DNA of 64,000 bases from an uncultured Lamprocystis sp. (GTDB lineage: Bacteria > Pseudomonadota > Gammaproteobacteria > Chromatiales > Chromatiaceae). Shown one piece after another: positions 46,349 through 53,192 of the stretch (the first letter of the stretch is position 1; every line of letters begins with the position of its first letter). The notes under the pieces are model-generated. The model worked only from the letters and a program-made list of their open reading frames with translations. It made no database searches and was not told the origin of the DNA. The translations under genes and the position numbers were made by a program. The stretch lies in contig NZ_CAIZIZ010000310.1 in the NCBI RefSeq assembly GCF_903933125.1, positions 1 through 64,000 on the forward strand, in the 5' to 3' direction.

Positions 46349-46433
46349 TAAACCGCGCCAGCTTCAGTAATCGTCGAGTTCGCCGGGGCCGATCCCATCC
46401 AAAAACATCGCATACCGCGCTGGGCGCGGTTTA
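46349..46433. repeat. Inverted repeat TAAACCGCGCCAGC ... GCTGGGCGCGGTTTA downstream of tamB
   Basis: 14/15-nt arms, one bulge. Right arm includes the tamB stop codon. A further TAAACCGCG lies at 46241. Confidence 0.6.
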
Positions 46434-49400
46434 ACGCTCAAACTTGTAGAAAATATCCCCGCCCGGATTTTCGCCGGTCTCGGTCTGAAGTTCGATATTG
46501 CGGCTCCAGTCATAGCGTAGCTTCACCGCGTCCTTGCGGTCGCCGATACCGCTCTCGTATTCCACGAACAGCTTGGGCGCCACATAGGTCCCGACCGACA
46601 CCGACTGGTCCTCCGGACCCGAATCGCTGCGGGGTGCGATCCCGGTCAACAGGTACTTGGTGATCTCCGCCTGGCTCAGGTTCGGATTACTGTCCGAGAA
46701 GAAGGCGAGTTTCGGCTTGCGGATGTTCCCGAGAACCCGCACGCCGGCGCTGGCGCTGCCGCTCTCGCGCTGGGCCTGGAGCAGCAGACCCGGATTGCCG
46801 ATGGGCGTCATGGCATAGACCAACCGCCCCTGCTCGATCGTCAGGGGGGCGCCGATTTCGGCGCCCAGACCGAACCCGGCGGAGAAACGGTAGATCCCGT
46901 CCACGATCGCCAGTTGGCCATCCCCCAGCATCTCCTTGCCCGGGGCCTGCACCACCCGCAGGTCGCCGGCCAGCCGACCGCGCACCCCAAAGGCGTCGAG
47001 CGTCACGTTGTCGCCGAGCTTCAGACGCAGATCGATGTCGATCGGAAACGGTGGCTTTGCAGTACCGGCCTGATCGACCAACACCACATCCGGTGACGCC
47101 GAGACCGTGCCCGCCGGGATGGCGCGCGGCCGGATACGCGCCTCGGGGACACTGATCTCACCCGAGACGCGGGCGCCCGGCGGTGTCAGATCGACCTGGA
47201 TACGCGGCGAAACCAGGGCGAAATACTCTTTGGTGTCGGCCACCTTGAGCCGATCACCCGCGATCAGGAAGCGGCCGGCCAGACCCATGGGGCCCAGCCG
47301 CGCATCACCGCTCAGCTCCAGCCGTCCACCGCCGATCTGCCCCTGACCCTGAAGATCGATGCGATCCATGGTCGGAGCCAGGAGATTGATGTTCAGATCG
47401 GCGACCTTGAGCCCGATCAGCGGCACCTCGGCGCCGAACTTGCGCAGTGCCGCGTCCCCTTTGACCCCGGGTTTGCCGAGGGTTCCACCCAACGTCAGAT
47501 CAGCAGCGATGCTCCCGCTCACGCCGGTCAGGTCCGGCACCAACCGGGCCAGGCGCGCCAGCCCGTCAATCTTGGCCTTGAGGCCGCCGCGCAGCGGCTG
47601 ATCCGGACGCGCCGGATGGTCCAGCCGCCAGCCCGGCAACTCCGCCGACGCGCTGACCTCGCCCAACCCCTTGAGCGGCAGCGCGAGACGCCCACCCAGA
47701 CCCTTGGTTCCCGCGTCCAGGGTCAGGCGGGTCTTGGAGAAATCCAGCACCTCCGATCGGGCTGCGCCCAGGATCAGGCGGATGCGCCCGTCGGGAACCG
47801 CAGCGACCAGATTGCCGGTCAGTACCGGACCCGAAGCCTGGAAACGGCCCTTGATCTGCGCCGCGCCCTCGGCGCTCTGGTTCGCGGACAACAGGCCCTC
47901 GAACAGCTCGAACCCGAGCTTGTCCAGATCGATATCCGCCGTCCACTGGCCCGCCGCGGTCTGGTTAAAGCCGACACAGCCCCCCGAACCCTTGCCGTTG
48001 CGCAGACACAGAGGTCCGGCAGCGATCCTGGGGCCGGCGAGCACAACCGGCATGGTCTTCTGCAAACGCCAGTTGCCATAGGGCTGATTGTCCAGATCGA
48101 GCCGGGTCAGCGCCCCCTGGTAGGCACCCTGGTCCTTGAGTCCGCCCACGGCCTCCAGCCGGACCGCCAGCGGCTCGCCCGTCAAGACGACGCTCAGGCG
48201 ATGGCTCGGCATGCTACCGTCGCCGCGCACCTTGAGACTGTCCCACCGCAAGGCCCCAACCGCCAGGCCGGTTCCATCGAGTTCGATTTTGAGCGGACCC
48301 GTGGGGGTCAATGCCAAATCCAGGTTCCCGGTCAAACCGGCCATGCGCTGGCCAGCCGCTTCGACGTCCTTGGCGCTCAGGTCCATCCGCACCCGCGGGG
48401 CCTGCACCGTCCCCGCGACCTGGCCCTTGGCCTGGAAGCTGCCCTTGGCCTGCGGCAGCAGACTGGCCAGATCCGGCGAGGCGAGTTCGAAACGCAGGTC
48501 GAGTGTCTCGCCCGCCACGGTGCCGTCAACCCGCGCCATGCTGGGACCCGAGGACGCGGTGAAGCCCGCCACGCGCAACGTCCCCGCGGCCATGCTGACC
48601 TGGCCGGTCGCGGCGATGGGATAACCCCGCAGATTGCCCTGCACGCCCTCCAGCGCCGCCGTGAGGTTTGGCCCCTTGGCCTCCAGGGTGCCCTGCGCCC
48701 TGATCCGGCCGTCGATGCGGCCCGGCCACGCGGACGCATAGGCGCCGGGATTGATCCCGCCGGCCGTCAGATCCGCCTCCCAGGTGACCTGGGGATCCCA
48801 GCCGACGCGGGCGCGGCCCTCGATGCGGCCCTGCAGGGCATCCAACCGCAGGGTCTCGATCACGGTGCCCTGACCATCGCCCGTGCCGCCGACGGACAGC
48901 CGCGCGGGCGGCAGCCCTGGCCCCTGGGAACTGGCCAGCAGGTCATAGCCGAAACGGTTGAGCCCGCCTTTGCTATCCAGTGCGAGACTGATCCGGTCAT
49001 CCAGCCCCGGAGCCAGGCCGGCCGGGTTCAGGTCCTGGCCGCGCAGCTTCAGGTCCCAGGCGAGCGCAGGTGCCCAGGCGAGGTCGCCGCTGACCTCCAG
49101 GGTGCCGCCCAGGGTCTTCAGCACTAATGCGGCGATGCGGGTGCCCGCGGCGGTCCCGCTGCCCTTGAGGTCGAGTTCGGTCGCCGGGAACCCGGGGCCT
49201 TCGGCCGCGGCCGCGACGGCGTAGTCATAGGCATCGAAGGTGCCTGATGCGTCCAACCGGCCGCGCGGGGCCGCGGCTACCAAAGTGCCGGAGAGCGGCC
49301 AGCGCAGCCGCTCCCAAGCACCCTTGAGCTGGAAGCTGCCGGGGTTCGGTTTGAGGTCCAGGCCACCCGCGGCCTTGAACACCGCCCCGGAAACCGACTC

Positions 49401-50474
49401 ATGCAGTTGCAGCGTGCGCAGCGCCAGCGCCCGGTTTTTCCAGACTGCGTCCAGTTCCATCTGGAGTCGGCCGAAGTCAGGCAGGTTCAGCGCCTGGGCC
49501 TCCAGCGTGCCGGTCAGGGTCGCGGCATCCAGGTCACCGCGGGTCTCCAGGCGCCCGCGCACCGCCACCTCCGGGGCTCCCGCCTGAAAGTCCGGCACCC
49601 GCACGTCCTTGATCTGGAGCAGGCCCTCCCAGTTCGGCCGCCCGAGCAAATCCTGGACCTGGGCATCCAGTTCGACCTGCGCAGAGCCGTCCAGGTCGAC
49701 CAGCATGACCAGCCGCTTGAAGTCGCCGCTGAGCTGGCCCCGACCCTTGATCCGCGCCGTCGGCGCCAGGCTCAGATCCCAGTCCAGGCGCAAGTCCAGT
49801 GGATACGCGTCCCGCAATTCCATCCGGCCCTCGACACGCGCCGCGAGCCGGGGTTCCGGCAGGTCGAGTTCCAACCGCAGGAGGTCCAAGTCACTGCCCG
49901 CGAGCCCCCCTGCCAGCAGGGCGCGGTCCACGACAAAAACAGGCACCGCGCTCCCCCGCTGCAGCACCCGCAGCCGCTCCACCAGGACCTCGTCGATCGC
50001 GATCCGAATCGGCAGGCCAATCTGCGGCAACGCAATCGGTTGTGGCTCCCGCTCCTGGCCGGGGACGGTGACGATATCCAGGTCGCGCGCCACCAGCCGG
50101 GCGACCCGCAAGGTGCCGCCGAAAACGCTCAGCGGCGACCAGTCCAGATCGAGACTGCCCAACCGCAGATCCAGGTCGGTGAGATGCACCTCCAGATCCT
50201 CCAGATGCAGCCGCCCCAGGACCCGACCCTCCACCTTGCCGACACGGATCACGCCGGTGGCCAGATCCTGGGCGAGCCCGAGCGCGGCACGCAGGCCCGG
50301 CTGGGTGCCGAGCACCAGCAGCAACACCACCAGCACCACCAGGACAAGTTGGAAGAACAAGCCGCCGAGCAGGCGCAGCGAGCGGATCAGCGGACGGCGC
50401 CGTCGGTCCGCCGGCGCCACCGTCCGCGGGGACGGGTCAGTTGCGGCTGCGGCGATCTGGATCCCGTCAGACAT
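46431..50474 (-). CDS. tamB: Translocation and assembly module inner membrane protein TamB (DUF490)
   Basis: Very long protein with N-terminal TM and a TamB-like C-terminus (GLGAEIGAPLTIEQGRLVYAMTPIGNPGLLLQAQRESGSASAGVRVLGNIRKPKLAFFSDSNPNLSQAEITKYLLTG). Confidence 0.92.
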   Translation of the reverse strand: MSDGIQIAAAATDPSPRTVAPADRRRRPLIRSLRLLGGLFFQLVLVVLVVLLLVLGTQPGLRAALGLAQDLATGVIRVGKVEGRVLGRLHLEDLEVHLTDLDLRLGSLDLDWSPLSVFGGTLRVARLVARDLDIVTVPGQEREPQPIALPQIGLPIRIAIDEVLVERLRVLQRGSAVPVFVVDRALLAGGLAGSDLDLLRLELDLPEPRLAARVEGRMELRDAYPLDLRLDWDLSLAPTARIKGRGQLSGDFKRLVMLVDLDGSAQVELDAQVQDLLGRPNWEGLLQIKDVRVPDFQAGAPEVAVRGRLETRGDLDAATLTGTLEAQALNLPDFGRLQMELDAVWKNRALALRTLQLHESVSGAVFKAAGGLDLKPNPGSFQLKGAWERLRWPLSGTLVAAAPRGRLDASGTFDAYDYAVAAAAEGPGFPATELDLKGSGTAAGTRIAALVLKTLGGTLEVSGDLAWAPALAWDLKLRGQDLNPAGLAPGLDDRISLALDSKGGLNRFGYDLLASSQGPGLPPARLSVGGTGDGQGTVIETLRLDALQGRIEGRARVGWDPQVTWEADLTAGGINPGAYASAWPGRIDGRIRAQGTLEAKGPNLTAALEGVQGNLRGYPIAATGQVSMAAGTLRVAGFTASSGPSMARVDGTVAGETLDLRFELASPDLASLLPQAKGSFQAKGQVAGTVQAPRVRMDLSAKDVEAAGQRMAGLTGNLDLALTPTGPLKIELDGTGLAVGALRWDSLKVRGDGSMPSHRLSVVLTGEPLAVRLEAVGGLKDQGAYQGALTRLDLDNQPYGNWRLQKTMPVVLAGPRIAAGPLCLRNGKGSGGCVGFNQTAAGQWTADIDLDKLGFELFEGLLSANQSAEGAAQIKGRFQASGPVLTGNLVAAVPDGRIRLILGAARSEVLDFSKTRLTLDAGTKGLGGRLALPLKGLGEVSASAELPGWRLDHPARPDQPLRGGLKAKIDGLARLARLVPDLTGVSGSIAADLTLGGTLGKPGVKGDAALRKFGAEVPLIGLKVADLNINLLAPTMDRIDLQGQGQIGGGRLELSGDARLGPMGLAGRFLIAGDRLKVADTKEYFALVSPRIQVDLTPPGARVSGEISVPEARIRPRAIPAGTVSASPDVVLVDQAGTAKPPFPIDIDLRLKLGDNVTLDAFGVRGRLAGDLRVVQAPGKEMLGDGQLAIVDGIYRFSAGFGLGAEIGAPLTIEQGRLVYAMTPIGNPGLLLQAQRESGSASAGVRVLGNIRKPKLAFFSDSNPNLSQAEITKYLLTGIAPRSDSGPEDQSVSVGTYVAPKLFVEYESGIGDRKDAVKLRYDWSRNIELQTETGENPGGDIFYKFER

Positions 50475-50505
50475 GGGCGCTAACCCGGTGATCGGTGTCC
50501 AAGGC

Positions 50506-51336
50506 TCAAGGCTCCAACCCCAGGGCACGCAACCGCGCGGCCAACTGCTCGGCACGCGCGTGCTCCTGCTCGGCGCGGGCTCGCTCCTGCTCGGCACGGG
50601 CACGCTCCTGCTCGGCACGGGCACTCTCCTGCTCGGCACGGGCACGCTCCTGCTCCGCACGAGCACGCTCCTGCTCGACACTGTCACGCGCCGACTGCGC
50701 TTGCGCGGCCTCGTGCTCAGCCTTGGCGGTCGCCTGCGCGGCACGCGCCGCCTCATCACGCAGCCGCGCGGCCAACTCGACCGAGGTCAAGAACGGCTGC
50801 CCCTGCGGATCGAAGATCTCCAGCGTCTCGCCGCTCAATGCAAAGCGGATACCCAGCCGCGGGCTGACCCAGCCCTTCAAGTGGGACATCCGCCGCAGCC
50901 GTCCCTCCTGGCGCAGCCAAACCTCCAGCGTGTTGGGCGAAGGATCATAGACGTAGTACTCCTCAACCCCATAGGCATCATAGAAGGCCAGTTTGTCTGC
51001 CATCTCCTTGACGCTGTTGGCCGGAGAGAGGACCTCGAAGACCACCTGCGGGGCAATACCGCCCTCTTCCCACTGTTTGTAAGAGCCGCGGCGACCCTTG
51101 GGCCGGCCAACGACGACCATCACGTCCGGGGCCACGGGCCCGGTGATCCGGCGCTCAGGAACCGGGTACCAGAAGAGATCCCCGGCGATGAAGACATTCG
51201 GGTCCTGCGCAAAGAGGATCTCGAGATTCTCCTTGATCTTGACCAGCCACTCATACTGCTCGGTGTTCTCCGCCATGGGCTCGCCGTCGCTCTCCGGATA
51301 GGGATCGTCGGGGTCGAAATGTGCGAGAGGATTCAT
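50506..51336 (-). CDS. Uma2-family (DUF820) putative restriction endonuclease with repetitive C-terminal coiled coil
   Basis: DLFWYPVP...APDVMVVVGRPKGRRGSYKQWEEGGIAPQVVFEVLSPANSVKEMADKLAFYDAYGVEEYYVYDP. Confidence 0.88.
   Translation of the reverse strand: MNPLAHFDPDDPYPESDGEPMAENTEQYEWLVKIKENLEILFAQDPNVFIAGDLFWYPVPERRITGPVAPDVMVVVGRPKGRRGSYKQWEEGGIAPQVVFEVLSPANSVKEMADKLAFYDAYGVEEYYVYDPSPNTLEVWLRQEGRLRRMSHLKGWVSPRLGIRFALSGETLEIFDPQGQPFLTSVELAARLRDEAARAAQATAKAEHEAAQAQSARDSVEQERARAEQERARAEQESARAEQERARAEQERARAEQEHARAEQLAARLRALGLEP
50545..50690 (-). repeat. In-frame 21-bp minisatellite encoding (E/S/H)ARAEQE heptads
   Basis: EQERARAEQERARAEQESARAEQERARAEQERARAEQEHARAEQ. Confidence 0.85.
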
Positions 51337-51473: not shown

Positions 51474-53192
51474 CTAAGCCGCTGTTTCGGACCTCACCCG
51501 GCGCGACACCTTGATCGTCGCAAGTGAGGCGATGCCATCCACCTCAAGCTCCGGACTCAGATTGGGCCTCAGCCCACGCGGCTGGCGCGGATGAGGCGCA
51601 AACCCCTCGCCGACCCGCGCCAAGTCGGCCTTGCTGCTGCTGTAATAGCGTGCCGCCTGAAGCGTTTTCGGCAGATTCTTCAGCACATGCCACAGGCTCC
51701 AGCGATGTTGCCACAGGCGTCGCGAGAAGCGCCGTCGATAGCCCTTGCTATCATAGAATCGACGGACCTGCGTGTTATAGAGTGCGTCCATTTCCACTCG
51801 CGAAGCGAAGCCCTTCGGCAGGTAGACAAAGTTGAGACAGTTCATCAGCCGCCAGTCTTCGTTGAACTCGCCCGATTCACCTCCGACGCAGTCATCCCAG
51901 ATCGGCGCCCCATACATGGGACTAAACTTGCTCATATTCATTTCGTCGAGATCGAGCGACAGCATGTAATCGCTGGTCGCGGCGATCGTTTCCGGTGTCT
52001 CGCCGGGCAGCCCAAAGATGAATAGTCCTTTTGGCCTCGATCAAGATTCCGGCCGCTTGGGCTCGCCGGGTGCGTAGTCAGGCCATCCTGGCCGGACACC
52101 GTCAGGGCTGGAAGCCCTGACTACGCATGCCGTTGGCCGGGGTTACGATCAAGGCCGTCCTTTTGCCCGCAGCCCCGCGGCGTGAATCTGCTCGACCGTC
52201 TTACGGACGCTGTCCAGGCTGACGCCGGCCTTATGCCGCTCCATCATGCCCGGATCGGCCGACTCAATCCCCATGGACACCATCAATGCACCAGCGCGCT
52301 TGAGCAGACACAACAACTCGTCCGACGTGTGGCCGGTGCGCACCGCGCAGTTGAAATCCATGCCGAGGGGTTTCGCGATCAGCTTTTCACATAAATCCGT
52401 CACGCGCTTGCGTTGTGCGGTGAAAAGGTCGTCGTAGAAATTGATATGGCGGACACCGAAACGGTCACGCAGGTACTTCATGTGCGCATAGACGTAATCC
52501 GCAGAATTCGTCTTGTACAAGCGCTCAAACACCGTGCGATCACAGAACGAGCACGTGTAAGGGCAGCCGCGGGAGGTGACCATGGTCGCGCCATACCGCT
52601 TGACGTAGGAAAACAGTGGCAGATGGTAACCGCGGGGGAAACCGGCGAGTTTTTCGTAAGCGGGGAAAGGCAGATCGTCGAGATCGAGGATGCGCTGGCG
52701 CCGGGGGTTGGAAACGATGTCCTCGCCGCTGCGATAGCAGAGATTGGCGATCGCGCGTGGATCCCGGTGCTCGGCCAGGTCCAGCATCGTCCCCTCGCCT
52801 TCGCCGATGCACAGATAATCGATTTCCGGAAAGTGTCGCAGCAGCGCTGCGCCAATCGAGGAAACGTGCACATTGCCGAACACGATTCGAACCTGCGGAC
52901 GTTTCGCCTTGACCCGCGCCGCGATCTCGAAGGCATCCATGAAGCCCGAGGTCGTGACCGAAAAGCCGACCAGTTCGGGGTTCGTCGCCAACACGATCGC
53001 GGCATTGGCGTCGATCGAAGCGGGCGCGCCGGGGCCGAGACAATCGTGTACAGCACATGGGTGACCATGCTGTTCCAGCCATGCCGCCAGTTGCAGGATG
53101 CCCAACGGCGCCATGCGATTCGCCAGCAGCGAGAAATCCGGCTGACCGGGTACGAAATTGAATCCGGCCGGGTGAACAAGGGTGATTCTCAT
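51474..53192 (-). pseudogene. B12-binding-domain radical SAM protein gene, interrupted by a MITE-like insertion
   Basis: N-part 52149-53192 (GCPYTCSFCDR) and C-part from 51474. Removing the insertion and one target copy gives GLRAKGLFIFGLPGETPETIAATSDYMLSLDLDEMN in frame. Confidence 0.9.
52025..52164. mobile_element. 124-bp MITE-like palindromic element (52033-52156) flanked by 8-bp direct repeats GTCCTTTT (52025-52032, 52157-52164)
   Basis: Imperfect terminal inverted repeats starting GGCCTyGATC; internal 11-bp arms GCGTAGTCAGG/CCTGACTACGC; target duplication inside a radical SAM gene. Confidence 0.9.

Follow-up and report, generated by a model that had tools for sequence, protein, structure and literature searches.

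The window, the whole 64,000-nucleotide stretch of uncultured Lamprocystis sp. DNA that was analysed, carries a 124-bp element within a B12-radical SAM gene. We consider it highly probable (about 0.9) that this element is a MITE with the terminal inverted repeats (TIRs) of a DUF6399 insertion sequence (IS), that it was moved in trans by the DUF6399 protein acting as a transposase, with an 8-bp target duplication (TSD), and that a doublet of REP-type hairpins forms its interior. Judged by its ends, copies and duplications, the element is a true MITE. Its insertion is ordinary in itself, as is the disruption of a gene by such an element. The partner transposase family is apparently unannotated as such by Pfam, NCBIfam and the RefSeq plasmid record, and the interior is apparently unusual.

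The element and the gene it interrupts

An earlier note on this DNA had described a non-autonomous MITE that splits a B12-radical SAM gene. This was borne out by the copies, the TSDs and the uninterrupted orthologues in congeners. The perfect duplication GTCCTTTT was found on either side of the 124 bp, where the note had placed it (Table 1). The imperfect inverted-repeat ends that it had reported were also present, 22 nt long and matching at 16/22 positions (73%), together with the 11-bp interior arms GCGTAGTCAGG/CCTGACTACGC at 52072-52082 and 52116-52126 and the second hairpin TCAGGGC-TGGAA-GCCCTGA at 52102-52120. The element is short, non-coding and transposase-free, as expected of a MITE with 22-bp TIRs, the pairing of 16/22 applying to the window copy. 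Its interior consists of GTAG (52074-52077) and a hairpin followed by an inverted hairpin and CTAC (52121-52124), which is the arrangement of a head-to-head GTAG dimer of REP units (PMC3733652). The predicted folding energy of this interior was -34 kcal/mol.

Table 1. Coordinates of the element, its parts and the interrupted gene (window positions unless a locus is named)
Feature	Position	Strand	Basis or remark
124-bp MITE	52033..52156	+	98-92% identical host-genome copies with exactly these boundaries
Left copy of 8-bp TSD, GTCCTTTT	52025..52032	.	read in sequence
Right copy of 8-bp TSD, GTCCTTTT	52157..52164	.	read in sequence
Left terminal inverted repeat, GGCCTCGATCAAGATTCCGGCC	52033..52054	+	TIR consensus GGCCTYGATCNNNNTYCCGGCC
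Right terminal inverted repeat, minus strand GGCCTTGATCGTAACCCCGGCC	52135..52156	-	
Interior cargo, a REP doublet of two GTAG-tagged hairpins in inverted orientation, each with its GTAG outermost	52071..52127	+	
First REP-like unit, GTAG and hairpin TCAGGCC-ATCCT-GGCCKGA	52074..52096	+	52094 is G here, T in consensus
Second REP-like unit, inverted, hairpin TCAGGGC-TGGAA-GCCCTGA and CTAC	52102..52124	-	
N-terminal part of broken gene, B12-binding domain and most of radical SAM domain	52149..53192	-	Pfam PF02310 E 2.5e-16, PF04055 E 1.3e-16
C-terminal part of broken gene (LFIFGLPGET... to original stop), without start	51474..52032	-	continuous with N-terminal part once flanks are joined; intact in six orthologues
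Doublets in a second repeat context	L104:11910, L115:14630, L055:2537, L068:9492		host genome and Ca. T. syntrophicum

Deletion of the element with one TSD copy gave a single 528-codon frame (51474-53192, minus strand) reading AKGLFIFGLPGET, in agreement with the note, and the insertion totals 132 bp, which is divisible by 3 as claimed. The N-terminal part encodes 347 aa and terminates at a TGA within the right TIR, and its radical SAM domain is cut short. The note had attributed the break solely to this stop in the terminal repeat. This was incorrect, because the gene frame runs through the element as KGRP*S*PRPTAC...PES*SRPKG, with three in-frame stops. One frame of the element itself stays open, on the + strand. 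Tolerance of the 132-bp insertion in frame, comparable to that of the Rickettsia palindromic elements, was considered and rejected, as none of the 124-bp copies tested inside long frames is read through. A further copy of 124 bp with the perfect TSD AAAAAGCC lies near a contig end of the host genome (contig C98, L087:19120-19243), and the frame that it hits resembles a Clp-type AAA+ ATPase. Genes of the Uma2 family (50506-51336) and the TamB family (46431-50759), both on the minus strand, neighbour the broken gene in the window.

The orthologues in six same-genus genomes are open frames with 87-97% protein identity. The note had proposed that relatives be checked for the same insertion, and none of these six orthologues has it. 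The joined flank aligned with the six congeners without a gap over the empty site, at 88-92% DNA identity. Since the six congeners are continuous at the site, the insertion is private to the host genome among those tested. The note had also called the insertion recent, and this stood only in a relative sense. The TSD is perfect, both gene halves are otherwise undamaged and the element is missing in the six congeners, but the window copy differs at 5/124 positions from the consensus of 28 copies, which places it outside the very latest burst.

Copies, target duplications and interiors

The host genome is a 7.1-Mb draft in 589 contigs. Its genus takes in Lamprocystis purpurea DSM 4197 and Candidatus Thiodictyon syntrophicum, and belongs to the Chromatiaceae, the purple sulfur bacteria. 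An interior 20-mer gave 205 matches in this genome with at most 2 mismatches (0 for a reversed-pattern control), and the TIR consensus GGCCTYGATCNNNNTYCCGGCC gave 689 (12 for a control pattern). The earlier note would have been contradicted by a lack of further copies and of 8-bp duplications at other sites; about 200 copies were found in the genome, many with their own 8-bp TSD. Among the best 30 copies, the TSD was perfect in 16 and agreed at 7/8 positions in 3 more.

The TSDs were also counted in a 1.1-Mb sample made up of 0.71 Mb of the host genome and 0.40 Mb of Ca. T. syntrophicum (G007). It contained 67 short TIR pairs, a number influenced by the choice of part of the sample for containing ends, and this choice does not influence the TSD comparison. 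A TSD of at least 7/8 was present in 31 of the 67 pairs and in 0/67 when the windows were shifted outward by 1-20 bp. All exact duplications measured either 8 bp (24 cases) or 9 bp (4 cases). TIR pairs 700-3500 bp apart were set aside as mostly weak ends paired by chance. No cargo-free element with end joined directly to end was detected when the 1.1-Mb sample was scanned by pattern. When a plasmid collection was searched with the element, only a weak partial match was obtained, on a Ca. T. syntrophicum plasmid. On the chromosome of the same organism, near 5.914 Mb (L107:13843-18680), TIR-bounded elements of several kinds are crowded together, and a stretch with the same size pattern recurs about 2.1-2.4 kb onward.

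Most sampled interiors are enclosed by the ends and keep constant offsets (41 and 50) from them, and bare copies are a minority. The fixed position of the REP doublet between the ends suggested that the whole 124-bp composite was amplified. Four interior copies were found in another shared repeat context, in which ...ACCGTGAAAGT precedes and CGC..GAGAGGACTTTCATGTTCCGGGG... follows the doublet (Table 1). Other interiors, 113 to 185 bp long, are also found between these ends with 8-bp TSDs, and several of them begin with GTAG. In the host genus one set of ends holds at least nine different interiors, most of which are inverted pairs of REP-type hairpins. For three of the nine query interiors (E, F and I), relatives flank RAYT genes on both sides in the host genome, and query interior C was found close to one flank of a RAYT gene. 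Another genus of Chromatiaceae (G009, L233-L240) has its own MITE families of 131-134 bp, with the same ends and perfect 8-bp TSDs around unrelated interiors that are not REP-like. Because these ends hold non-REP interiors with 8-bp TSDs, the ends would be the mobile part and the interior the variable one. As far as these families indicate, REP doublets are a frequent yet dispensable filling of the ends.

The probable partner insertion sequence and its protein

The earlier note had suggested a search for the mobilising transposase, and a likely partner was found, a DUF6399 IS that has its ends and 8-bp TSD in common with the MITE. A scan for pairs of ends yielded a 1916-bp unit in Ca. T. syntrophicum, bounded by MITE-type 22-bp ends, GGCCTTGATCAT..TTCCGGCC, with the TSD GCCGACCG. 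The 124-bp element thus shares its ends with a larger element that makes an 8-bp TSD, as a MITE should. The organism carries 11 full-length copies of the IS at 100% identity, on the chromosome and a plasmid. Two more of these copies that were checked have the private TSDs AATATTTC and CGAATTCA, and at a third (L122) the duplication did not match. The IS encodes a protein of 558 aa (WP_100918590.1). Pfam places the domain DUF6399 (PF19936) at its residues 400-546 (E 5.8e-59), and its N-terminus gives weak Pfam matches to helix-turn-helix domains. An NCBIfam search with this protein gave nothing exceeding the cut-offs. In the RefSeq plasmid record the gene carries the annotation 'DUF6399 domain-containing protein', and no transposase is called there, in Pfam or in NCBIfam. 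A literature search on DUF6399, outside which most subscription papers lay, gave no paper mentioning the family, and a search with the TIR strings gave only unrelated matches, which were primers or contaminants.

The host assembly has no complete copy of the IS, and all of its copies are degraded or interrupted by contig ends. Right parts of 1233 bp stand at the ends of contigs C176 and C215, their DNA being 94-96% identical to the Lamprocystis copy. A 308-bp left end with its TIR is found on contig C395. Contig C239 carries a 324-bp internally deleted derivative (L210:1468-1791) with a 7/8 TSD, TCTAAACA/TCTAAACG. From its structure, this derivative is an intermediate between the IS and the MITE. 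A diverged DUF6399 IS on contig C326 (L228:2286-4201) has 65-69% protein identity and a broken frame; it measures 1916 bp end to end, without a matching TSD.

With each species represented by one genome, a scan gave 41 DUF6399 loci, including loci in Accumulibacter, Thiocapsa, Desulfobacterales, Chloroflexi and Planctomycetota, the labels of metagenome-assembled genomes (MAGs) being those of the records. Where both ends could be located, the loci had GGCCTTGATCAT-like ends and an 8-bp duplication. The DUF6399 gene lies between TIRs with an 8-bp TSD in unrelated genomes, at L153, L165, L168, L171, L173, L177, L184 and others. Loci from Chromatiaceae and Desulfobacter have such ends with exact TSDs, and so do loci from Chloroflexi and Planctomycetota. 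The duplicated octamer is, for instance, TGGAAAAG in one planctomycete MAG, CCGAGCTA in one from Chloroflexi and AAATTTCG in Desulfobacter. Among 55 Chromatiaceae-level relatives, the excess of TIR matches over the control tracked the presence of the DUF6399 protein (median 51 with and 4 without, p = 5e-6; outside the genus 33 and 4, p = 7e-4), and these p-values serve only as a guide because kinship was ignored. One congener (G006) has 438 copies of the MITE ends and zero DUF6399 protein matches; its transposase may have been either lost or left unassembled. Several other genomes free of DUF6399 have 20-30 TIR matches.

Residues D147, D221 and E474 are invariant across 19 diverse DUF6399 proteins. 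A model of the full-length protein had a pLDDT of 88, and its strands (140-147, 155-160, 165-171, 193-200 and 217-220) follow the order of the RNase H fold. In this model D147 closes the first strand and D221 comes after the last, and about 250 mostly helical residues follow until E474. A fold search with the full-length model gave no significant match, the best transposase being ISCth4 (probability 0.90, E 0.17). Since the long helices dominated this search, the beta-strand core was predicted separately (AlphaFold2, pLDDT 72). The best 50 PDB matches listed for the core were all retroviral integrases, with probabilities of 0.98-1.00 and a best E of 4.9e-3. Sequence and profile searches against solved structures gave nothing significant for the DUF6399 protein, and no match to Transposase_mut, which would indicate the IS256 family, was obtained in Pfam or NCBIfam. 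The model and the integrase matches are good support for an RNase H-like fold, short of proving activity. Together with the invariant residues, these predictions indicated that the DUF6399 protein is very likely a DDE transposase.

Proposed movement of the element and comparison with known systems

These results suggested the following course of events. The DUF6399 protein would bind the 22-bp GGCCTTGATCAT..TTCCGGCC ends in trans and excise or copy the element, in a cut-and-paste or a replicative manner. Insertion at an 8-bp staggered cut would then give the 8-bp TSD. One copy entered the radical SAM domain, and the B12-radical SAM gene is terminated by the in-frame stops. The REP doublet was presumably captured by the MITE and not the reverse. 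A RAYT may have inserted the doublet into the MITE, or a deletion in the IS may have joined the ends around it.

The 124-bp unit could instead be a REPIN moved by a RAYT, an HUH single-strand transposase, with the outer ends as passive hitch-hikers or as a favoured target palindrome. The interior holds the two inverted GTAG hairpins typical of a REPIN, 16 Y1_Tnp matches occur in the host genome, related interiors flank RAYT genes there, interior copies without ends exist, and REP dimers 'inserted within' palindromes have been described (Di Nocera et al. 2013, PMC3733652). However, the interior lies mostly at its fixed offsets from both ends, the same ends and 8-bp TSDs surround unrelated non-REP interiors in the other genus, and the 124-bp interior flanks 0/15 of the Y1_Tnp loci examined in the host genome. 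Transposition of the RAYT/IS200 type gives no target duplication, in contrast to the 8-bp duplications found exactly at the outer ends. We consider movement by a RAYT very unlikely. A different DDE transposase of the host with similar ends is slightly less probable still. TSDs of 8 bp are made by several known families, such as IS256, ISL3, IS1595 and IS66, and ISCth4, the best transposase match of the full model, belongs to the IS256 family; G006, with its MITEs and zero DUF6399 matches, also fits a different enzyme. Against this, the DUF6399 IS carries the same 22-bp ends as the MITE, including TTCCGGCC, the DUF6399 protein has no transposase match in Pfam or NCBIfam, weak helix-turn-helix matches aside, and no second transposase was met inside such ends in scans that were not aimed at one.

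Multiplication of the copies by homologous recombination, gene conversion or larger duplications would explain why some copies have common flanks (L002/L003) and why MITE blocks are duplicated in part of Ca. T. syntrophicum (L107). However, the flanks of most copies are unrelated and their 8-bp TSDs private, and the site is empty in the congeners, which makes this very improbable, the least likely of the explanations weighed here.

Mobilisation by the DUF6399 protein would offer a testable reason for the REP dimers reported inside palindromes, namely that composites of this kind may be MITEs whose cargo is REP. A Pfam family of unknown function would also gain a likely role as transposase, together with the ends and the TSD that belong to it. 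With the ends and the TSD known, hundreds of unannotated insertions could be recognised in purple sulfur bacteria and other phyla. A wider reading, whose chances appear evenly balanced to us, is that an unrecognised IS family, with GGCCTTGATCAT-like ends and 8-bp TSDs in records of at least Proteobacteria, Desulfobacterota, Chloroflexi and Planctomycetota, has the DUF6399 proteins as its DDE transposases, and that in Thiodictyon/Lamprocystis REP doublets from several RAYT families have come to lie between its minimal ends time and again. REP hairpins would on this reading have a second, DDE-driven route of spreading, which would account for some REP dimers inside palindromes.

In the DDE transposases of the IS256/Mutator and hAT groups, a large helical insertion separates the second D from the E. 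DUF6399 resembles them in its predicted beta-beta-beta-alpha-beta-alpha-beta core, in the mainly helical stretch of about 250 residues that leads from D221 to E474 and in the 8-bp TSD. However, the sequence similarity is not significant and the ends differ. Bacterial MITEs are already known, and so are REP dimers within palindromes, which were reported without a mechanism (PMC3733652). MITEs are defined as non-coding elements of 70-300 bp with TIRs common to a larger IS, a target duplication and a high copy number, mobilised in trans (PMC3733652). The 124-bp element has the sequence traits of bacterial examples such as RUP, NEMIS/Correia, ERIC, Nezha, MITEAba12 and IS-derived TIR elements, and would likewise be mobilised in trans. 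It differs from them in that its partner comes from a family without transposase annotation and that at least nine interiors, mostly pairs of REP-type hairpins, occur in one set of ends. Its interior is an HH dimer with GTAG outside, like those of REPINs and GTAG REP dimers with RAYTs (Bertels and Rainey 2011, PMC3116915; PMC3733652), and related interiors flank RAYT genes of the host as RAYT-associated REPINs do. In contrast to REPINs, the copies here lie mostly within DDE-type ends with 8-bp TSDs. REP dimers in Anabaena variabilis and Halothiobacillus neapolitanus are regularly enclosed by an inverted-repeat tract (PMC3733652, section 7). The tracts were taken there for target palindromes, and neither a TSD nor a transposase was reported. 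In contrast, the TSDs and the matching IS mark the corresponding tract of the element described here as a transposon end.
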